This document shows, one piece after another, positions 1 to 9,014 of a stretch of 64,000 bases of DNA. The notes beneath the pieces are model-generated. The model was not told the origin of the DNA. It ran no database searches and saw only the letters and a list, made by a program, of their open reading frames with translations. The translations under genes were made by a program, and so were the position numbers. Origin of the DNA: Crossiella sp. SN42 (GTDB lineage Bacteria > Actinomycetota > Actinomycetes > Mycobacteriales > Pseudonocardiaceae); NCBI RefSeq assembly GCF_023897065.1, contig NZ_JAMHIV010000042.1, positions 1-64,000 on the forward strand, read 5' to 3'. Numbering within the stretch: position 1 is the first letter of the stretch; each line of letters begins with the position of its first letter.

Positions 1-55
1 GGCCGGGGTCGGCGCCGGTCCAGGCGGCGGTCAGGGCCGCTTCGATGGCGGTCAC
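1..55 (-). CDS. 5' end of the next RiPP-operon gene, cut by the window edge
   Basis: On the minus strand a GTG at 55-53 overlaps the TGA of the YcaO gene in a GTGA junction, the same translational coupling used at every other step of this operon. It opens VTAIEAALTAAWTGADPG before the sequence ends. Eighteen residues are too few to assign a family. Its position makes it a likely further tailoring, transport or protease gene of the RiPP operon, which therefore extends to the left of the window. Confidence 0.6.
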   Translation of the reverse strand, partial: MTAIEAALTAAWTGADPG

Positions 56-1419
56 AGGAAGGGGGGTGGGTCCAGGACCAGGCCCTCCGGACCGGTCAGG
101 GGGTTGGCTGCGGGGGCCCAGGCGCGGGATTGCTGGGCTTCGCGCCAGCGGGGCAGGCCCAGGTAGCGGAAGGCGGCTGGGGCGTTGGGGACCAGGCCGG
201 TTGCCGCTACGCGCAGGACTCGCCAGGGGGTTTCCGCCACGTCGGGGGTGGTGAGGTCGACGGTGGCCACTCGGCAGCCTTGGGCGCGCAGGCTTTGCTG
301 GAGATCGGGGAGGGTGCCGGTGGGGAGGTCCGCGGCGGCGATCTCGGTGGTGGGGTTGGTGAAGCGCGGGAGCAGGGACTCCTGGGTTCTGGGGTCCAGC
401 CAGATCTGGGGTTGGGCGCCCAGGTCGCGGACTCGGGCGAAGTGGGGGCCCGCTGCGTCGCGGTAGCTGCGGTCGGGGCGGTGGTCCAGGTAGAGGCCCT
501 TGGCCAGGATGCCCGCTTTGATCGTGTCGAAGACCCAGCCGTCGGGCTCCAGCAGGCCCAGGGTGAAGACCCAGGTGTGGATGGCTTCCATGGCGGCCTT
601 GGCGCAGGCCTCGGCTGGGTCTAGCCGCGCCGCGCCGCCGCCGGCCACGATGCCGGTCTCCTCGTCGATGGCGACCGCGGCGACGCAGGCGACCGGATGT
701 TCGGTGGGCAGTTCGACCAGGTGGATCTTCAGGCGGGTGCCGGTGAGGTCGGCGCGCAGGCCGGGGACCGAGTCCAGCGCGATGCCGCGGCTGGGGGCGC
801 CCAGGTGCCACCAGAGTTCCAGGGCGTCGCGTTCCAGCAGTTCCAGCAGGCCCCGGCGGAAGGCGTCGGGGGCGTCCGCGCCGGTGGCGATGCCCGCGTA
901 GTTGAGGTGGTGCAGGCGGGGTTCGCGCTTGCGCTCGCCGGTGAAGTAGTTCAGGTAGACCCAGGAGGCGGGCAGCCAGCAGGGTTCGCCGTCCTCCTCG
1001 CCCCTGGTCCACAACAGCTCCGTGTCGGCGGTGAACTCCTGGTACGGGAAGCCGGGTTCGCGGTGCTGCCACGGGGCGAAGAAGGGCAGGTCGGCCGGGC
1101 CGAAGTGGCGGTGGCCCTCGGCGGCCAGGACAGCCGCGGTGGTGCGGCGGAGGCGGGGGTCGTCCAGCGGGGGCAGGCGGTTGCCGCAGTAGCGTTCGAC
1201 CGCCTCGCCGAGGGCCGCGACCCTGGCGCCCTCGACGTCGCCGAAGGTGGTGCCCAGGCTGACCCGGTCGGCGGGCCAGGCGCCGAGCCTGCGGGCGTCG
1301 GACACCTCGGCGGTGACGCCGCGGTACCGGTGCGGCAGGCCGGGCACCGGGGTCACGTCGACGAACCGGCGGACGATGCCGGTCAGCGGGTCGACCATGG
1401 TCTCCGGCGACAGGCTCAC
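52..1419 (-). CDS. YcaO-domain cyclodehydratase of a RiPP (TOMM-like) operon
   Basis: A 455-residue YcaO protein. The family uses ATP to activate peptide amide bonds, usually to form azolines from Cys, Ser or Thr and sometimes amidines. The N-terminal half carries the ATP-site signature: a Ser/Gly-rich turn at residues 54-60 followed by ALGEAVERYC at about 69-78, which supplies Glu and Arg ligands. A second Glu-rich segment (EETGIVAGGGAARLDPAEACAKAAMEA, described here only in part) lies mid-protein. The C-terminus ends in DPPPFL, a degenerate version of the proline-rich tail of azoline-forming YcaO enzymes. The GTG start was chosen because it overlaps the TGA of the upstream hydrolase (GTGA); a longer in-frame extension is only a shadow of that gene. 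The RRE/E1-like protein two genes upstream supplies the expected leader-binding partner. YcaO membership is certain; the chemistry performed is inferred. Confidence 0.9.
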   Translation of the reverse strand: MSLSPETMVDPLTGIVRRFVDVTPVPGLPHRYRGVTAEVSDARRLGAWPADRVSLGTTFGDVEGARVAALGEAVERYCGNRLPPLDDPRLRRTTAAVLAAEGHRHFGPADLPFFAPWQHREPGFPYQEFTADTELLWTRGEEDGEPCWLPASWVYLNYFTGERKREPRLHHLNYAGIATGADAPDAFRRGLLELLERDALELWWHLGAPSRGIALDSVPGLRADLTGTRLKIHLVELPTEHPVACVAAVAIDEETGIVAGGGAARLDPAEACAKAAMEAIHTWVFTLGLLEPDGWVFDTIKAGILAKGLYLDHRPDRSYRDAAGPHFARVRDLGAQPQIWLDPRTQESLLPRFTNPTTEIAAADLPTGTLPDLQQSLRAQGCRVATVDLTTPDVAETPWRVLRVAATGLVPNAPAAFRYLGLPRWREAQQSRAWAPAANPLTGPEGLVLDPPPFL

Positions 1420-2882
1420 CGGACCACCTCCTCGATCAGGTTCGCCGCGGGCACCGCGTCGGCGGCCGCGGCCCAGGGCAGGGTGAGTTCGGCGTGCAGC
1501 ACCTCGCGGCGGCTGGGGTGCAGCTCGACCGCGTCGACCGGGTCTGCCCCGGTGTGCGGGTTGCGGGCGTGCCGGGGCCAGTGGTGCCCGGCGATCTCCA
1601 GGCGCAGCCGGGTTCCTGGCGGCAGTTCGACGCCGAGTGGGCCCAGTTCGGCGGTGCGCTCGACCGGATGGCCGGGTGGGGCGGTGTCGCGGAAGATCGT
1701 GTGCGCGAGCTGACGTTGATCGTCCACTGTGGACAGTCGGAGCAGCCAGTCGTTGTCGGGGGTGTCCGCGCGCAGCCGCAGGCGGACGCCGATCCGACCG
1801 CGCAGCACGCCGCCGGGCAGGGGGGCGGAGTGCAGCAGGGCGCGGTCGGGGCGGTTGGCGTCGGGGGCGAGGTCGGCGGCGGGCTCGCGGGAGGGGAACG
1901 GGTGGGCCGGGTCGGCGGTGAAGACGCCGCGGACCACGGAGAGGGGGCAGGCGGGGCCGGTGTCGGCGGGCCAGCGGGACCAGTGGTCGCCGGTGGCGAT
2001 CCAGGCCGCGGCACCGGTGAGAGCGGGGCGAGTGGCACCGGTGAGAGCGGGGGCGGCGAGCGCGGCGAGGGCGGCTTGGGCGAAGGCCAGGTACAGAGCG
2101 CCGATGCGTTTGCCTGCCAGGGCCGCTCCGGGGGCGTGGGCGTCCAGCAGGTGGCCCCAGGGGCCCAGGACCAGGCGGGAGGGGCCGCCCCAGGTGGCAG
2201 CCAGCTCGGCGGTGTCGGCGGCGAAGGGGTCGTGCACGCCGCCTACCGCGAGCAGGGGGACCTGACATTCACGGAGGGCGGGCCAGAGCGCGCCGCGGCG
2301 GGGGGCGGCCCAGAGGTCGGACCAGCCTGGTTGGTCGACCAGGTCGCGGATGGGGAGGTGGGTGAGGTCGAGCTGGGCTGGGGGGCGGGGTTGCGGGGTG
2401 CCGCCGTGTTCGGACCACCAACCGGCGCGGCAGGCCAGGCGGGCCGCGCCGCCGGGGTCGCGGGCGGTTTCGCCGGGCCCCATGGCGGGGACGGCGGCGA
2501 TCACCGCGGCCACCGGGGCGGTGCCGGCCGCGGCGGTGGCCAGTGCGCAGTACGCGCCGTAGGACGCGCCGGTGAGGATGACCCGGCCGTCGCAGAAGTC
2601 CTGGGCGTGCACCCAGTCGAGGACCGCGGCGCCGTCGGACGCCTCGTGCACGTACGGGCGGAACTGGCCGCCGGAGGCGAATCTGCCCCGGGTATCCACG
2701 GTTACGCAGGCGAAACCTCGTTTCGCCCAACTTTTCGCCTCGGCGTGGTTTAGCCGCTGGTCGTAGGGGGAACGAAGAAGTACCACCGGCGACCGTTCAC
2801 GCTCGGGAGAGCGGAAGACGGTGGCAGCGAGGGGTACCTCGTCCGCGGCGGGGACGAGGTACCCCTCTACTTCTGCGCTCAC
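1416..2882 (-). CDS. CocE/NonD-family alpha/beta hydrolase in the RiPP operon
   Basis: A 488-residue serine hydrolase of the CocE/X-Pro dipeptidyl-peptidase (PF02129) type. An N-terminal alpha/beta-hydrolase fold carries the family motif DTRGRFASGG at about residues 63-72 and the nucleophile elbow GASYG with Ser107. The Asp (GGVHDPFA) and His (GPWGHLLDAH) of the triad follow. The C-terminal third is the jelly-roll domain usual in CocE and X-Pro peptidases. It overlaps both neighbours by four bases (GTGA), so it is co-translated with the leader-binding protein and the YcaO. It may remove the leader, trim the modified peptide or hydrolyse an activated intermediate. Bottromycin operons also pair a YcaO with an alpha/beta hydrolase, but in that pathway the hydrolase is a different subfamily. 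No signal peptide is visible, so it is probably cytoplasmic. Confidence 0.85.
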   Translation of the reverse strand: MSAEVEGYLVPAADEVPLAATVFRSPERERSPVVLLRSPYDQRLNHAEAKSWAKRGFACVTVDTRGRFASGGQFRPYVHEASDGAAVLDWVHAQDFCDGRVILTGASYGAYCALATAAAGTAPVAAVIAAVPAMGPGETARDPGGAARLACRAGWWSEHGGTPQPRPPAQLDLTHLPIRDLVDQPGWSDLWAAPRRGALWPALRECQVPLLAVGGVHDPFAADTAELAATWGGPSRLVLGPWGHLLDAHAPGAALAGKRIGALYLAFAQAALAALAAPALTGATRPALTGAAAWIATGDHWSRWPADTGPACPLSVVRGVFTADPAHPFPSREPAADLAPDANRPDRALLHSAPLPGGVLRGRIGVRLRLRADTPDNDWLLRLSTVDDQRQLAHTIFRDTAPPGHPVERTAELGPLGVELPPGTRLRLEIAGHHWPRHARNPHTGADPVDAVELHPSRREVLHAELTLPWAAAADAVPAANLIEEVVR

Positions 2883-3664
2883 GACGCGCAGTCCGGGACG
2901 CGAAGCACCGGGTGGTCGGTGATCGCGGCGGTGTCCAGGTCGAGCACGCGCAGCCGTCGGTTGGCGGGCAGTTCGGTGGTCACCAGGGAGCCGGCCGGGC
3001 GGGTTGGCTGCGCGCAGGCCCAGCCGCGGAGGTCGAGGGCGGCGGCGGAGAGCACCAGGGTCAGGTCGGCCACGTCGAAGTGTTCCGCGCCGGTGATCGC
3101 CTCGTGTTGCGCCCAGTAGGCGGCCAGGTGCTGGTGGCCGGAGCCGGCGGCGGCCAGGCGGCGCAGCCGGACGTCGCGGTGGCGGACGTCGGCCGGGCCG
3201 GCGGCCACCGGTTCCAGGATCGCGTGCCTGCCCTCGCGGCTGATCCGCTGCCAGGCGATGCCACGGGCCGGCAGCTCGTCCAGCTCGGTCCACCACTGCG
3301 GGGCCGGGCCGTCGTGCAGGGCGCAGACCGCGGCCAGGCCGTCCAGCGCGTCCGCGGTGACCAGGCGCGGGTCGGCGCCGTGCGCGCGGAGCAGGTCGAG
3401 GTAGGGCTTGGCCAGCTCTTCGGTGGCCAGCACGCCGACCGCGGCGCGTTCTGCGGGCCAGGCGCGGCGGCGGCCGAGGAACCCGGCCTCGGCGAAGGCG
3501 GAGAGCTCTGGCGGGGCCTGCGCACCGGTGGTCAGGGTGGCGCGGACGGCGGTGAGGGTCTCCGGCGGCAGCGCGATGTCGAGCACCTCGCCCTCTGGCG
3601 AGCGCAGCGCGGTCCGGTCCTCGGGCAGGCCGAACAGCACGGCACCCGGTGTCAGCTGACTCAT
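2879..3664 (-). CDS. RRE plus degenerate E1/ThiF-like leader-binding protein
   Basis: A 261-residue protein that looks like the C component of azoline-forming RiPP systems. Residues 1-60 (VLFGLP..., EVLDIALPPETL..., FAEAGFL) fit the small winged-helix RiPP recognition element that binds leader peptides. The middle segment, GIAWQRISREGRHAILEP then a short LRRLAAAG helix, and the C-terminal HPVLRVPDC match the shortened E1/ThiF-like fold. The paired CxxC zinc ligands usual there are missing: the first pair reads PADVRHRD and only one Cys is left at the end. The ATG was chosen because a GGAGGT ribosome site lies a few bases upstream. It follows the precursor gene and a strong hairpin, and overlaps the hydrolase by GTGA. 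The assignment rests on motif resemblance and context, since no alignment could be run. Confidence 0.65.
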   Translation of the reverse strand: MSQLTPGAVLFGLPEDRTALRSPEGEVLDIALPPETLTAVRATLTTGAQAPPELSAFAEAGFLGRRRAWPAERAAVGVLATEELAKPYLDLLRAHGADPRLVTADALDGLAAVCALHDGPAPQWWTELDELPARGIAWQRISREGRHAILEPVAAGPADVRHRDVRLRRLAAAGSGHQHLAAYWAQHEAITGAEHFDVADLTLVLSAAALDLRGWACAQPTRPAGSLVTTELPANRRLRVLDLDTAAITDHPVLRVPDCAS

Positions 3665-3683
3665 GCGCACCTCCGGGACAGAC

Positions 3684-3719
3684 GGTGGCCCGCCGCACCC
3701 CGGGGCACGGCGGGCCACC
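3684..3719 (-). terminator. Hairpin between precursor and biosynthetic genes
   Basis: A perfect 12-bp inverted repeat (GGTGGCCCGCCG ... CGGCGGGCCACC) with a 12-nt loop lies between the precursor stop codon and the ribosome site of the leader-binding gene. There is no T-run. It probably works as an attenuator or 3' stabiliser that gives more precursor than enzyme transcript, as is common in RiPP operons. Confidence 0.65.
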
Positions 3720-3738
3720 TTGTCAGGTCAGACCGAAA

Positions 3739-3843
3739 TCAGTCCTGGTCGGCGAACGGGTTCTCGACCAGGGCGTTGCTGTGGCTAGCCGAGTTGTGCG
3801 GCAGCTCGCGCTCGGTCTCGACGCGCACGAACACCTTGTCCAT
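3739..3843 (-). CDS. Putative RiPP precursor peptide, 34 residues
   Basis: A short gene with one of the best ribosome sites in the window: GAGGAGGT five bases before an ATG. Its acidic, beta-strand-like N-terminus MDKVFVRVETEREL (1-14) looks like a leader. It is followed by PHNSASHSN (15-23), with three Ser and two His, and an acidic tail ending NPFADQD. There is no Cys, so any azoline would have to come from Ser, or the tail could take part in another amide modification. It sits first in the operon, ahead of the RRE/E1-like, hydrolase and YcaO genes and separated from them by a hairpin, which is the usual place for a precursor. An in-frame ATG at 3885 would add 14 basic residues but has only a poor ribosome site. 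The untranslated leader contains a small hairpin (GGTTGA/TCAACC, 3864-3878). I do not recognise the sequence as a known precursor family; leader and core limits are inferred. Confidence 0.65.
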   Translation of the reverse strand: MDKVFVRVETERELPHNSASHSNALVENPFADQD

Positions 3844-3896
3844 CTCGTACCTCCTCAGATGACGGTTGACCTTCAACCTCCTCATGCCTATCACAA

Positions 3897-3911
3897 ATGA
3901 AAGTCATTACC
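3897..3911. promoter_or_regulatory. Fur/Zur-like operator between RiPP operon and MFS gene
   Basis: ATGAAAGTCATTACC lies between the divergent precursor and MFS genes. It contains an exact AATGA-AAG-TCATT dyad and matches the box at 9000-9014 in 11 of 15 positions, all four differences being purine-for-purine or pyrimidine-for-pyrimidine. The A/T-rich TGAAA...TTA dyad recalls actinobacterial Zur boxes and is unlike an IdeR iron box. The regulator's identity is inferred. Confidence 0.5.
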
Positions 3912-3931
3912 AATAGTGTTAGTGTGCTCGG

Positions 3932-5191
3932 GTGACGAACGTCGTAGCCCTTCGGCGGGACCCGGACTTCCGCCGGTACCTCGCCGCCCGGGTGATTTCC
4001 GTGGCCGGTTCGCGGGTGACCCTGGTCGCGCTGCCGATCTTGGTGTACCAGCTGACCGGTTCGGCGGCCTGGAGCGCGGCCATGGCGGCCGCGGAGACGC
4101 TGCCCTACCTGCTGTTCGGCCTGTTCGCGGGCGTGCTGGCGGACCGGCTGGACCGGCGCGGGCTGATGGTGGCCGCGGACCTGCTCAACGCGGCCCTGCT
4201 GGTCAGCATCCCGGTCACCTGGGCACTCGGCGGCCTCACCGTGGAGCACGTGGTGGTGGCCGGGTTCCTGTCCCAGACGCTGTTCGTGGTCTTCGACGCG
4301 GCCAACTTCGGCGCGCTGCCCACCCTGGTCGGCAAGGACCGGACCACCTCGGCCTACGCCACCGTGTCCGGGATGACCACGGTGGTGGAGATGGTGGTGC
4401 CGCCGCTGGCCACGCTGGCCGTCACGCTGCTCTCCCCCGCGCCCATGCTGACCGTGGACGTGCTCAGCTACGCCATCTCGGCCCTGTTGCTGCGCGCCAT
4501 CGTGCGCCCGCTGTCCGCGCCGGACCGGGCCGGGCGGCCGCGCTCGCTGGCCGACATCCGGACCGACGTGCGCGGCGGGCTGACCTTCCTGTGGCGTCAC
4601 CCGACCGTGCGCACGCTGACCCTGGTCGGCGCCACCCATTCGGCCGCGGGCGGGGCCTGGGTGGCGATGCTGCTGCCGTGGGCGGACCGCTCGCTCGGCG
4701 TGCCGCCCAGCGGGGATCCCCGGCTGGCCGTGCTGACCAGCTGCTGGGGCGTGGGCGCGCTGCTGGCGGCCAAGCTGGTGCCGACACTCAGCCGCAGGCT
4801 CGGCCCGGCACGGCTGGCCCTGCGCGCGCTGCCCGCCTCGCTGCTGTGCGGGCTGCTGGTGGTGTTCAGCTCGCACTGGCTGCTCGGCGCGGTGGCCGCG
4901 GTCGCCTGGGGCACCGCCTACACCACGGTGGTGATCAACGCGATCACCTTCCGGCAGCAGGTCACCCCGGATGAGCTGCAGGGCCGGGTGAACACCACGG
5001 CGCGGATGCTCTCCTACGGCCTCGGCCAGCCGCTGGGCGCGACGCTGGCCGGGGTGGTCGCGGTGGCGGCGAGCCCGAGTGCCGGACTCGCCGCCGCGGT
5101 CGGCGTGCTCGCCGTGGGCGTGGTGCTGGCCTGGTGCTCGCCGCTGCGCGCCGAGGCCAGGCCGGAGCGGATCTACAGCACCGTGTCGTAG
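3932..5191 (+). CDS. MFS transporter, probable exporter of the RiPP product
   Basis: A 419-residue major facilitator of the MFS_3/EntS-like type with about twelve hydrophobic segments. The loop after the second helix reads GVLADRLDRRGLM, the family's GxLaDrxdRR motif. It begins with GTG at 3932, 20 bp from the shared operator and divergent from the RiPP precursor. Its last 19 bases overlap the 3' end of the importer ATPase gene on the other strand. EntS-type MFS proteins export siderophores and other natural products, and the location between the RiPP genes and a metallophore importer fits that role. The substrate is inferred; there is no biochemical signature for it in the sequence. Confidence 0.85.
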   Translation: MTNVVALRRDPDFRRYLAARVISVAGSRVTLVALPILVYQLTGSAAWSAAMAAAETLPYLLFGLFAGVLADRLDRRGLMVAADLLNAALLVSIPVTWALGGLTVEHVVVAGFLSQTLFVVFDAANFGALPTLVGKDRTTSAYATVSGMTTVVEMVVPPLATLAVTLLSPAPMLTVDVLSYAISALLLRAIVRPLSAPDRAGRPRSLADIRTDVRGGLTFLWRHPTVRTLTLVGATHSAAGGAWVAMLLPWADRSLGVPPSGDPRLAVLTSCWGVGALLAAKLVPTLSRRLGPARLALRALPASLLCGLLVVFSSHWLLGAVAAVAWGTAYTTVVINAITFRQQVTPDELQGRVNTTARMLSYGLGQPLGATLAGVVAVAASPSAGLAAAVGVLAVGVVLAWCSPLRAEARPERIYSTVS

Positions 5192-5949
5192 GCGCAGGCC
5201 GGGCGGCCGGTCCGCTCGTCCCGCCAGACCCGCCCGCGCACGCCGAAGACCTCGGCCAGCAGTCCGGCGTCGACCACCTCGGCGGCCGGGCCGTCGGCGT
5301 GCACCGCCCCGTCCCGCAGTGCGACCACCCGGTCGGCGAAGCGGGCCGCCTGGGCCAGGTCGTGCAGCACGGTGACCACGGTCAGCCCGCGTTCGGCGCG
5401 CAGCCTGGCCACCAGCTCCAGCACCTCCAGCTGGTGCCGGACGTCCAGGTAGGTGGTCGGCTCGTCCAGCAGCAGCACCGGCGCGTCCTGGGCCAGTGCC
5501 AGGGCCAGCCGGACCCGCTGGCGCTCGCCGCCGGAGAGCCGGTCCACCGCGGCGTCGGCGTACTCGGTCACCCCGGTCTCGGCCAGCGCCCTGCGCACCT
5601 GCTCGTCATCGCCGGTGCGCAGCATGCCCAGCGGGCCGCGCACGGCGTAGCGGCCCTGCCGGACCAGCTGGCGCACGGTCAGTCCCGGCACCGAGGGCAT
5701 GGCCTGCGGCAGCACCGCGATCCGGCGGGCGATCTCCCTGCGGGACAAGGAGTCCAGCCCGTCCGCGCCCAGGCGCACCGTGCCCGCGTCCGGGGTGTGC
5801 AGCCCGGCCAGCACGCGCAGCAGGGTGCTCTTGCCGCAGCCATTGCGGCCCACCAGCGCGAGCCACTCCCCTTCCGCCACCTGTATGTCCACAGTGGACA
5901 GAACAGTGCGCGGCCCGAACCGGACGGTGATGCCGGTGCCAGTGATCAT
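5173..5949 (-). CDS. FecE/FhuC-type ABC ATPase for metallophore uptake
   Basis: A 258-residue ABC ATPase that powers import of iron-siderophore or related metal complexes. Visible motifs in order are Walker A GRNGCGKST near residue 34, a Q-loop in VLPQAM, the signature LSGGERQR, Walker B VLLLDEP and the switch His in VLHDLAQA. The pattern of short spacing and the LDVRHQLEVL helix is typical of the FecE/FhuC/BtuD group. It is the last gene of a four-gene minus-strand operon and starts one base after the stop of the adjacent permease gene. Its 3' end overlaps that of the MFS gene on the opposite strand. Confidence 0.93.
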   Translation of the reverse strand: MITGTGITVRFGPRTVLSTVDIQVAEGEWLALVGRNGCGKSTLLRVLAGLHTPDAGTVRLGADGLDSLSRREIARRIAVLPQAMPSVPGLTVRQLVRQGRYAVRGPLGMLRTGDDEQVRRALAETGVTEYADAAVDRLSGGERQRVRLALALAQDAPVLLLDEPTTYLDVRHQLEVLELVARLRAERGLTVVTVLHDLAQAARFADRVVALRDGAVHADGPAAEVVDAGLLAEVFGVRGRVWRDERTGRPACAYDTVL

Positions 5950-5950
5950 T

Positions 5951-6964
5951 TCAGTCCCTCCCCGCCAGCGCGCTGGAGAACCGGCGCGCGACCACGATCA
6001 ACACCACCGCGCCGGCCAGCGCGGTCACCGCACCCACCGGCACCCCGATCCGCTGGCTGCCCGAGGCCGGGACCAGCAGGGTCACCGCCTGGGCCAGGAA
6101 GTCCGCCCCGCACACGCAGGCCGCGCCGGCGATCCCGGCCGAGGGCAGCAGCAGCCGGTGCTCGGCCCCGGTGAGCAGCCGCGCGGCGTGCGGGGCGAGC
6201 AGTCCGACGAAGGCCACCGCGCCCACCGCGGCCACCGAGGCCGCGGTGGCCAGCACCGCGCCGAGCAGCGCGAGCATCCGCCACGGCGGCACCGCGAGGC
6301 CGACCGCCTTGGCGTGGTCGTCGTCCACCGCGAGCAGGTCCAGCGCGGGCGCCACCAGCGCGAGCACCAGCGTGACCAGCAGCAGCCACGGCCACAGCGC
6401 GTGCCAGTGCTCCCAGGTCCGCCCGTTGAGCGAGCCGACCAGCCAGCGCGCGGCCGCGCCGGCCAGCTGCGGCCGGGCGGTGAGCAGCACCAGGGACAGC
6501 CCGGCCAGCACCGCGGAGACCAGCACGCCGAGCACCACCAGCCGCAGCGGGTCGGCCCCGGCCCGCGAGGCGATCAGCCACAGCGCGGCGCCGCCGAGCA
6601 CGCCGCCCATGATGGCCGCCGCGGTGAGCCCGGCCGCGGTGCCTGCCAGGCCGAACACGGTGGCGGCCACCGCGCCGAGCACCGCGCCGGAACCGACCCC
6701 GGTGACCTCGGGCGAGGCCATCGGGTTGCGCAGCACGGCCTGCAGCACCACGCCGCCCAGGCCCAGGCAGGCGCCGGTGCCCAGGGCGACCAGCATCCGG
6801 GGCAGGCGGAGCTCGCCGACGATGGTCAGGTTCAGCTCGCTGCCCGCGCCGAAGAGGGCGAACAGCGCGTCCAGCGGGCCGACCGAGGTGCCCACGGAGA
6901 GCTGGGCCACCGCGGCGACCGCGAGCGCGAGCAGCAGCAGTGGGACGGCCAGTCGCCGGGTCAT
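5951..6964 (-). CDS. FecCD-family metallophore permease (second)
   Basis: A 337-residue integral membrane permease of the FecCD/BtuC family, with about nine or ten hydrophobic helices. The family signatures LRLPRMLVALGTGACLGLGG and LRNPMASPEVTGVGSGA are present; the latter forms the region that contacts the ATPase and the translocation path. The ATG at 6964 overlaps the TGA of the partner permease (ATGA), which is why it is preferred to longer in-frame starts. It should pair with the neighbouring permease as a heterodimer in the inner membrane. Confidence 0.93.
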   Translation of the reverse strand: MTRRLAVPLLLLALAVAAVAQLSVGTSVGPLDALFALFGAGSELNLTIVGELRLPRMLVALGTGACLGLGGVVLQAVLRNPMASPEVTGVGSGAVLGAVAATVFGLAGTAAGLTAAAIMGGVLGGAALWLIASRAGADPLRLVVLGVLVSAVLAGLSLVLLTARPQLAGAAARWLVGSLNGRTWEHWHALWPWLLLVTLVLALVAPALDLLAVDDDHAKAVGLAVPPWRMLALLGAVLATAASVAAVGAVAFVGLLAPHAARLLTGAEHRLLLPSAGIAGAACVCGADFLAQAVTLLVPASGSQRIGVPVGAVTALAGAVVLIVVARRFSSALAGRD

Positions 6965-7944
6965 CCGAGCACCTCCGCGCGACGACGGAACAGCAGCAGC
7001 GTGCCCAGCACCACCGCGACCACCGCGGTCAGGCCGCCCACCGGCAGCTCGACCGGGTAGAGCACGGTGCGCGCCAGCAGGTCGGCCAGCACCACCAGCA
7101 ACGCACCGAAGACCGCCGACCAGGCCAGCCACACCCTGGCGCCCGCGGTCGGCCGCAGTCGCCTGGCCAGCTGCGGGCCGAGGAAGCCGACCCAGGCGAT
7201 CGGGCCAGCCGGGCCGACCGCCACCGCGACCAGCGCGCAGGCCAGCACCAGCACCGCCAGCCGGGCCCGGCCCGCGCGCAGGCCGAGCGCGGAGGCGGTG
7301 TCATCGCCCAGCCGGAGCAGGCCGAGCGCGGGCACCGCGAGCAGCGCCAGCGGCAGCGCGGCGAGCAGGCCGGGCGCGGCGAAGGCCACCGTGTCCCAGG
7401 TGGTGCCGGTCAGCGAGCCCAGCAGGTAGCGGAACAACACGCCCTGCTCGCGGGAGTCCGACAGGGACAGCCCGGTGAACAGGACCGCTTGCAGCGCCGC
7501 GCTCACCGCGGCCCCGATCAGCAGCACCGCGGCCGGGCCGACCGCCCTGCGTGCGGCGAGCAGGGTGAGCAGGCCGCCGGTCACCGCGCCGAGCAGCGCG
7601 GGGACCAGCGGCGCGCCCGGCACCGGCACCGCCCAGACCACGGTGATGGCCACCGCGGCCGAGGCCCCGCTGGAGACACCGAGCAGCTCCGGCACGGCCA
7701 GCGGGTTACGCAGCGACTCCTGCAACAGCAGCCCGGCCGCGCCCAGCGCCGCGCCCGCGCACAGCGCGAGCAGCAGCCTGGGCGCGCGCAGCAGCACGAC
7801 CACCGCGTGTTCCAGTCCGGTCTCGGCGGCGAAGGCCGCGGGCAGCCGGTTGACCCCGACCAGCGGGGTGCCCAGGCACAGCGTGGCCGTGGCCGCCACC
7901 AGCAAGGCCAGCACCGCGAGCAGGGGCGCGAGCTGCCTGCTCAC
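6961..7944 (-). CDS. FecCD-family metallophore permease (first)
   Basis: A 327-residue FecCD-type permease, homologous to the next gene. LRAPRLLLALCAGAALGAAG and LRNPLAVPELLGVSSGA mark the family. The GTG start at 7944 overlaps the stop of the binding-protein gene by GTGA. The N-terminal helix begins within ten residues of this start, as expected for the family. With the ATPase and lipoprotein it makes a complete type II ABC importer. Confidence 0.93.
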   Translation of the reverse strand: MSRQLAPLLAVLALLVAATATLCLGTPLVGVNRLPAAFAAETGLEHAVVVLLRAPRLLLALCAGAALGAAGLLLQESLRNPLAVPELLGVSSGASAAVAITVVWAVPVPGAPLVPALLGAVTGGLLTLLAARRAVGPAAVLLIGAAVSAALQAVLFTGLSLSDSREQGVLFRYLLGSLTGTTWDTVAFAAPGLLAALPLALLAVPALGLLRLGDDTASALGLRAGRARLAVLVLACALVAVAVGPAGPIAWVGFLGPQLARRLRPTAGARVWLAWSAVFGALLVVLADLLARTVLYPVELPVGGLTAVVAVVLGTLLLFRRRAEVLG

Positions 7945-8963
7945 GCCGCGGGCGCCGCGGACACCTTGGCCATCGCCTCGTCGATGATCGCGCCGAGGCT
8001 GCGGGTGCCCCGGCCGGAGCCCCAGAGCTTGGGCACGACCTCGTGCACCTGACCGGACTGCACGGCCTTCACCTGCTTCCACACCGGGTTCGCGGCGAGC
8101 TGTTCGGACAGCTTCTTGTCAGTGGAGGCGAAGATCAAGGAGTAGACGAAGACCACGGTCGGCTGCTTCGCCAGGATCTCCTCCACGCTGTAGATGTTCG
8201 CGGTCTCCACGTTGCCGCCCTTGGCCGGGAACGGGTAGCCGAAGAGCTGGCCGAGCAGCTTGCCGTTGATCGAGTCGGCGGTGTCCACGCCGATGGAGTC
8301 GGCGCTGCCGAACATCAGCAGCACGGTCTGCTTGTTCAGGCCCTTCTGCTCGCTGGTCTCGATCGCCTGCGCGAGCTTGGTGCGGAACTTCTTCTCCGCG
8401 GCCACGGCCTGCTCGGTGCGGCCGGTGAGCGCGCCCAGGTTGCGCAGGTAGCCGACGGACTGCTCCCAGCTGCTCGGGTTGACCGTCCACAGTGGAGCGT
8501 TGAACTTCTGCACCGCGGGCCGGAGTCCGTCGTGCACACCGGAAAGTCCGATCACCAGGTCCGGCTTGAGCGCGCCGATCGCCTCGGCGTCCTCCTGGCC
8601 GAAGCTGCCGGGCACGACCGGCACCTGCTTGCCCGCCTCACCGGCCAGCTGGGGCAGGGTCAGCAGCACCGCGTTGGAGGTGCCCGCCGGTTTCAGTCCG
8701 AGTTCGGTGAGCGCGTCGTCACACAATCCGGTGAGGCAGACGATCCGCTCCGGGACCTTGGGCAGGGTCACGTTCTGTCCGGCCGGATCGGTCACGCTGA
8801 GCGAGGGCGCCAGCGGTGCGGCGTTGACCTCGACGGCCGCCCCGGTGGCCGCGGCGGGGGTCGTGGGAGCGGTTGCGGGTGGCGCCGCGGTGCACGCGGA
8901 AACTACGGCTGCCGAGGCCGTGACCAGGCTGAGCAGGCCGATCTTGGTGCGCGACGGACGCAC
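7941..8963 (-). CDS. FecB/FepB-type metallophore-binding lipoprotein
   Basis: A 340-residue periplasmic-binding protein (PF01497). It begins with a basic segment and a lipoprotein signal ending SACT, whose Cys would be lipid-modified, then an Ala/Pro/Thr-rich tether. The mature domain starts with the family phrase PERIVCLTG and includes PDLVIGLSGVHDGLRP. The GTG at 8963 was chosen because a GGAGG ribosome site lies six bases upstream and because the longer ATG frame at 9014 would run through the operator box. It is the first gene of the importer operon. In such systems this protein captures the loaded chelator on the outer face of the membrane. The ligand is unknown; the shared operator suggests it is the product of the neighbouring RiPP genes. 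Confidence 0.88.
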   Translation of the reverse strand: MRPSRTKIGLLSLVTASAAVVSACTAAPPATAPTTPAAATGAAVEVNAAPLAPSLSVTDPAGQNVTLPKVPERIVCLTGLCDDALTELGLKPAGTSNAVLLTLPQLAGEAGKQVPVVPGSFGQEDAEAIGALKPDLVIGLSGVHDGLRPAVQKFNAPLWTVNPSSWEQSVGYLRNLGALTGRTEQAVAAEKKFRTKLAQAIETSEQKGLNKQTVLLMFGSADSIGVDTADSINGKLLGQLFGYPFPAKGGNVETANIYSVEEILAKQPTVVFVYSLIFASTDKKLSEQLAANPVWKQVKAVQSGQVHEVVPKLWGSGRGTRSLGAIIDEAMAKVSAAPAA

Positions 8964-8999
8964 AGGACACCTCCGGGTGGGGATGGGACCGAAGAAGAC

Positions 9000-9014
9000 G
9001 ATAACGGTTTTCAT
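9000..9014. promoter_or_regulatory. Fur/Zur-like operator of the importer operon
   Basis: On the minus strand the sequence is ATGAAAACCGTTATC, 36 bases before the GTG of the binding-protein gene. Its central TGAAAAC-C-GTTATCG is a good dyad and resembles Zur boxes of other actinobacteria. With the box at 3897-3911 it gives the joint pattern ATGAAARYCRTTAYC. Confidence 0.5.

Follow-up and report, generated by a model that had tools for sequence, protein, structure and literature searches.

How does the gene of a ribosomally synthesised and post-translationally modified peptide (RiPP) come to sit beside a complete FecBCDE-type importer, and what might switch the two on? The question is raised by the first 9,014 positions of a 64,000-nucleotide stretch of the soil actinobacterium Crossiella sp. 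SN42 (contig NZ_JAMHIV010000042.1, positions 1 to 64,000), called here the window, whose start is the extreme end of contig C37 of the 9.7-Mb draft genome. The original prediction, made from the letters of the DNA, saw a peptide metallophore with no described counterpart, exported by a major facilitator superfamily (MFS) protein and taken back with its metal. By its sequence the locus is an ami cluster, a RiPP cluster of the streptamidine family. The gene set itself has already been described; what is new here is the regulation, a predicted Zur-type box matched by sequence upstream of the locus. We think it probable that the locus encodes a Zur-controlled, ribosomally made zincophore system with MFS export and re-import by FecBCDE.

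What was known of the streptamidine family

Work of Russell et al. (2021; PMC8442711), whose main text is the source for all that is said here of streptamidine, described a cluster of amiA-E, FecBCDE genes (amiF1-F4) and the ABC transporter genes amiT1-T2. Streptamidine is the hexapeptide HLSATH with an amidine ring, a six-membered amidine ring being characteristic of products of the family, and clusters of its type occur in more than 230 species. The FecBCDE genes led those authors to suspect metal import, and they settled on no function. AmiA of the window lies above the cut-off of the family model NF040714 and the amiA-E/FecBCDE set is published, so the claim that no described RiPP has this exact gene set was wrong. 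Is anything known about the control of these genes? In that main text the words Zur and MFS are absent, and no link between the family and Zur appears in the titles and abstract openings of the open-licence literature searched.

A Zur-type box at ami loci

The elements on which the argument turns are these:

3739..3843, minus strand: amiA, 34-residue precursor MDKVFVRVETERELPHNSASHSNALVENPFADQD; NF040714 'streptamidine family RiPP' 64.0 bits, cut-off 40
3898..3912, no strand assigned: predicted Zur-type operator in the intergenic stretch between amiA and the divergent MFS gene; 17.7 bits
3932..5191, plus strand: EntS-like MFS protein, candidate peptide exporter; PF07690/PF05977, NF007792 EntS 91 bits, cut-off 324
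7941..8963, minus strand: fecB (amiF1), chelate-binding lipoprotein of the importer; PF01497 75.7 bits
8999..9013, no strand assigned: predicted Zur-type operator upstream of fecB; 21.6 bits

How can such a box be recognised? Zur is known to control paralogues of rpmB (ribosomal protein L28) in actinobacteria. From 14 rpmB-paralogue loci, 18 boxes served to train a 15-bp matrix; it is circular for these 14 loci, which were picked because a box was visible. Across the 64-kb window it finds sites of at least 12 bits at 3898-3912 and 8999-9013 and nowhere else, in keeping with the prediction that the RiPP operon and the importer share an operator-like box. The score of the first is equalled by 3 of 5000 shuffles and that of the second by none of 5000; the first has the same position in relatives. 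For fecB, GTG 8963 with a GGAGG ahead of it is a likelier start than ATG 9014, which would place the box upstream of and outside the gene.

Is the box a feature of the family or of this genome? Searching named genomes with an alignment of AmiD turned up 238 relatives, and the analysis went on with the 80 best; among these the nearest to the window is Crossiella sp. S99.2, with 94% AmiD identity. Of these 80 loci, 54 have a recognised motif-A precursor; the 26 without one, which include short contigs, distant AmiD loci and L109, were excluded. Within 300 bp ahead of the SAxH codons, 54/54 loci have a site of at least 12 bits, 51 one of at least 17 bits and 47 one of at least 20 bits, at a distance of 110-185 bp from these codons; dinucleotide shuffles reach the three thresholds in 101, 8 and 0 of 5400 cases. 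Judged by position only, 69 of the 73 named loci that extend far enough upstream show 17 bits or more at a site 1.5-4.8 kb before amiD, compared with 5/69 in a downstream control interval, and these 69 include 18 of the 20 loci lacking a recognised precursor.

Two further samples agree. A class sample of 394 genomes gave the precursor model in 19 (own genome included), 18 of them above the curated cut-off; a site of at least 12.6 bits is present in all 19 and one of at least 17 bits in 16. One genome carries three precursor copies, of which one, close to the end of a contig, lacks a site. In the family survey, amiB relatives were found in 30/297 genomes, own genome included; stretches of about 20 kb (14 kb once) around the other 29 gave 24 full ami loci, 23 of which have a site of at least 17 bits. 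After reduction at 99.5% AmiD identity the box is present in 83 of 89 non-redundant loci. Box columns carry 1.41 bits and flanking columns 0.18 (45 sites), a contrast biased by the matrix having picked the sites, for which the shuffles and the downstream control interval are fairer tests. Around the genome's other YcaO gene (C1:552906) no site in 20 kb scores above 6.8 bits; a box is thus no general trait of YcaO loci.

Two individual loci may be mentioned. In Rhodococcus rhodochrous the 533-kb linear plasmid pNit carries an ami cluster with an annotated amiA and a 25.7-bit box about 80 bp before it (L293). In genome G678 (L190) a precursor-like sequence that contains an internal stop and lies below the model cut-off has a 28.4-bit box, stronger than any other in the class sample.

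Why Zur?

The original guess that the box is of the Zur type gains support from its company elsewhere: the matrix made from rpmB-paralogue boxes matches it, and the box recurs at ZnuA-family and CobW genes. Sites of at least 17 bits stand at 17 of 26 ZnuA-family loci (2 of the 17 being pieces of one gene), with at least one in 15/15 genomes. Loci taken as housekeeping rpmB copies score 11.1 bits or less; four rpmB loci that resemble paralogues (L197, L198, L205, L211) have no site of at least 12 bits within 1.5 kb. In the 9.7-Mb genome a strict pattern of the box matches 17 places, the fecB box at 8999-9013 included, and the reversed pattern matches 1. Ten of the 17 places were examined. Among them are two CobW genes (one divergent from an L28 paralogue), znuA, an ABC-3 permease with its ATPase, another FecB-type gene and two ami-locus places; those on C3, C30 and C82 have no evident zinc gene. 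At the ami cluster itself an rpmB (L28) paralogue is a neighbour in 13 of the 80 named loci, every one from Streptomyces, and a ZnuA gene in 1 of 80 (Arthrobacter).

Could the metal be another one? An iron siderophore, or a chelator of cobalt, nickel or copper, under the box of a different Fur-family regulator would fit the likeness of FecB to siderophore-binding proteins, which make up most of its sequence relatives in the PDB, and the genome has three FUR-family genes. Boxes of Fur-family regulators also resemble each other. Against this stand the matrix scores at ZnuA-family genes, reached with training on rpmB paralogues, the strict pattern at CobW genes, and the failure to find an IdeR-type iron box before amiA or fecB, where the best match has 12/19 positions of the consensus. 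We regard another metal as very unlikely; that the regulator is Zur is suggested by the sequence comparison.

Of the 16 FecB-type genes in the genome, 2 have a box no more than 1.5 kb from the domain. The second, at C1:123560 (L273), has a Zur-type box of 22.6 bits and is a candidate importer for another zinc chelate.

RiPP genes, a candidate exporter and an importer as one conserved unit

What does the box stand before? Each gene was checked by translation and by protein family scans (Pfam, NCBIfam), and the predicted RiPP genes, divergent EntS-like MFS gene and FecBCDE importer are all present. The remaining features are the following:

1..55, minus strand: amiE-like dehydrogenase, first codons only, frame TAIEAALTAAWTGADPG; its GTG start overlaps the YcaO gene stop and the gene is cut by the contig end
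52..1419, minus strand: amiD, YcaO-domain cyclodehydratase; PF02624 156 bits, TIGR03604 206.9 bits, slightly below the cut-off of 219.25
1416..2882, minus strand: amiC, CocE/NonD family hydrolase; TIGR00976 159 bits, above cut-off, and PF02129
2879..3664, minus strand: amiB, E1-like/RRE partner of the YcaO enzyme, by predicted fold
3665..3738, minus strand: hairpin between precursor and amiB; the fold of 3660-3740 has -46.7 kcal/mol, z -3.49
5173..5949, minus strand: fecE (amiF4), importer ATPase; PF00005, top NCBIfam match FecE, under cut-off
5951..6964, minus strand: fecD (amiF3), importer permease; PF01032 246 bits
6961..7944, minus strand: fecC (amiF2), importer permease; PF01032 208 bits

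The sequence relatives of AmiD in the PDB are MusD, LynD and TruD. AmiB has no Pfam match in the family scan; the best structural matches to its predicted fold (mean pLDDT 80) are LynD and TruD, both heterocyclases, and chains from the McbBCD complex. AmiC is likely the leader-removing hydrolase, by analogy with the role proposed for it by Russell et al. (PMC8442711), and the core of AmiA is likely HNSASH, by analogy with HLSATH; this core is almost invariant across the family loci. GTGA overlaps had been described throughout the operon. They couple amiB to amiC, amiC to amiD and amiD to the next gene; the precursor is not coupled in this way and lies 74 bp ahead of amiB. The strong hairpin between the two, whose folding energy is reached by 2/200 shuffles, is possibly an attenuator or a processing stem.

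Is this arrangement kept in relatives? In the stretches fetched for the 24 family loci, FecBCDE is present in 23 and the MFS gene in 24, and a FecC/FecD-type permease in 66 of the 68 named loci of at least 19 kb (from the best 80 of 238 relatives) and 81 of 84 non-redundant ones. The neighbourhood survey thus argues against an importer and a RiPP operon that are unlinked in all relatives, and the view of operon, exporter and importer as one conserved unit holds across the family and named loci. The importer might nevertheless serve a different chelator, with the RiPP operon a mere neighbour under the same regulator. Gene order differs between ami loci, fecBCDE being found on either side of amiA, its own box is sometimes present and sometimes absent, and one other of the 16 FecB-type genes has a box. 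We judge this very unlikely: the permease linkage persists through several gene orders, and in the published cluster deletion of FecBCDE stops production (PMC8442711).

The exporter varies. An ABC pair was scored as two same-strand ABC ATPases after amiD, an MFS gene at 100 bits or more. Among 96 loci of at least 19 kb there are 57 with MFS, 31 with the ABC pair, 0 with both and 8 with neither; these counts are redundant, as named and family loci overlap (the same genomes in two collections), and the 84 non-redundant loci give 45, 31, 0 and 8. In the window the MFS gene takes the place of amiT1-T2, the ABC pair. In the published work amiT1-T2 are common in the main group, and their deletion lowered production and did not abolish it (PMC8442711), which is why they are not taken here as family-defining.

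Viral homologues of amiB were also considered: 17 stretches of viral contigs matched amiB patterns and 0 encode a relative.

Different precursors behind the box

Is the peptide always the same? Behind many of the boxes at loci without a recognised precursor there are other short candidates: AHPTCNH-ALVADLF precursors (4 loci), tandem APQGPGTNALVHNPF and near variants (8 loci) and short VHSSNHATVALAKVAWR-like candidates (4 loci). We put forward, as a tentative idea with somewhat less than an even chance of being right, that streptamidine-like peptides are a ribosomal zincophore class across Actinobacteria. It would comprise at least four precursor types (HxSAxH-SNALVENPF, AHPTCNH-ALVADLF, tandem APQGPGTNALVHNPF and HSSNH-type) preceded by Zur boxes; exporters would be interchangeable, the importer of the Fec type, and an AztD-like zinc carrier outside the cell a frequent companion. 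Published streptamidine would then be an incomplete or spent form.

Some further loci deserve a note. In Planobispora, Thermoactinospora and Actinomadura (L146, L148, L152, L154), AHPTCNHALVADLF candidate precursors stand behind a Zur-type box, with a His/Cys-bearing core that differs from motif A. Two YcaO genes each are present at L155, L157, L159, L160 and L169. At the last four of these a short open reading frame behind the box contains HSSNHAT and ends in AWR, without an ALVENPF follower.

AmiE and a propeller protein

The window cuts amiE. The whole gene is found in the same species (L033:12864-14606), with weak SagB/nitroreductase-type matches under cut-off, and is followed by a convergent propeller gene. 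In the genome studied here a propeller gene lies at C54:1418-2704, adjoining a 22.4-bit box. C54 begins within the amiE repeat, so C37 and C54 very likely adjoin there. This repeat is an in-frame array of 42-bp units in 9.5 copies, encoding peptide units like EMTGHLxxxQ, found at L033:13106-13502 and at the start of C54 (genome G000, L254, about 1-424); the contig end at which the window starts is close to it. At two loci of the same genus (L034-L035) the conserved part of amiE starts about 140 bp after amiD, versus about 910 bp.

What is the propeller protein? AztD is its best structural match by VIA-align, where many propellers score high too, and the fold suggests that it may be AztD-like. 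Its sequence identity to the zinc chaperone AztD is 12-17% in structural alignments, and H63, H107 and H208 are invariant in 20 aligned homologues; as residue lists they may be set beside site 1 of AztD, H124, H167 and H218, as given in passages of PMC6689063. Naming it AztD by sequence failed: the name is not among the NCBIfam matches (the library may lack such a model) or the PDB sequence matches.

How might the system work?

Under zinc shortage Zur would leave the amiA/MFS box and the fecB box, and precursor, enzymes, exporter and importer would be made together. AmiB and AmiD, with AmiC and AmiE, would turn the core HNSASH into a small amidine peptide that retains its two histidines. The peptide would be exported by the EntS-like MFS protein and then bind zinc, and the zinc-peptide complex would be taken up via FecBCDE. 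The AztD-like propeller protein, which has its own box in this genome and in some relatives, may hand over zinc outside the cell. Binding by Zur, zinc chelation, the exporter role of the MFS protein and re-uptake by FecBCDE are the steps that we infer.

What weighs against such a zincophore? Binding of Fe, Co, Cu, Mg, Mn, Ni and Zn by streptamidine was tested and none was detected, and the amiD mutant had no starvation phenotype (PMC8442711). Deletion of FecBCDE abolished production, which a pure uptake role would not predict. Production in culture was substantial; the main text of that paper uses the word 'medium' 0 times and 'media' once, without composition. On our side the amiA box of the window is among the weaker ones, one family locus (L054) and 4 of the 73 testable named loci (L141, L147, L153, L155) have no 17-bit site in the stretch where it is expected, and the 13 Streptomyces rpmB neighbours may be a single event. 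The fecB box reaches 17 bits in 11/23 family and 16/43 named loci tested. The assignment to Zur is a comparative one. Finally, the APQGPGTNALVHNPF precursor type has no His or Cys before its ALV motif, so two-histidine chelation cannot apply class-wide.

The idea of fecB as a universal Zur-box gene was dropped, since the fecB genes beyond these 11 and 16 have sites of 13-17 bits or none.

How heavy are the published negatives? AmiE is essential, yet streptamidine shows no oxidation, and the authors allow that the peptide may have lost an oxidised part (PMC8442711); the negative zinc test therefore weighs less. Published streptamidine being incomplete or spent, if true, would explain that test as well. 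A ZnuA-family gene in 15/15 genomes could mask a mutant phenotype.

The same observations may be read in another way. The peptide could be Zur-controlled and no zincophore, a zinc-starvation signal or a weapon, with FecBCDE importing either that peptide or a zinc chelate from other producers. The evidence for Zur fits this equally, as do the absence of a phenotype, the failure to detect metal binding and the loss of production without FecBCDE (PMC8442711), and so do the very different candidate cores behind the box, some of which lack His and Cys ahead of ALV. What makes it unlikely, to our mind, is that streptamidine had neither antibacterial nor antifungal activity (PMC8442711), and that 54/54 motif-A precursors, which lie next to an exporter and an importer, keep two core histidines (the second was required by the search pattern).

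What would a zincophore mean? A Zur-type box in relatives of many genera, behind varied precursors, names the metal and the growth condition to test, and streptamidine, described without a known role, gains a testable one. Should zinc chelation prove true, the peptide would be a zinc carrier encoded by a gene, with a core open to variation through its codons, and the co-travel of YcaO, E1-like and FecBCDE genes would be explained.

Comparison with known systems

Which known systems come closest? Methanobactin-type RiPPs are ribosomal peptide metal carriers too, but for copper and made by other enzymes. Coelibactin and [S,S]-EDDS come from non-ribosomal pathways, whereas the candidate chelator here is ribosomal. 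The biosynthesis of these two is likewise linked to Zur sites, as passages of PMC12161575 report. The closest relative in gene content is the ami cluster of Streptomyces albidoflavus J1074 (PMC8442711), which shares amiA, the E1-like amiB, the hydrolase amiC, the YcaO gene amiD, amiE and FecBCDE. It differs in its core, HLSATH against HNSASH in the window, and in having the ABC pair amiT1-T2 where the window has its EntS-like MFS gene.

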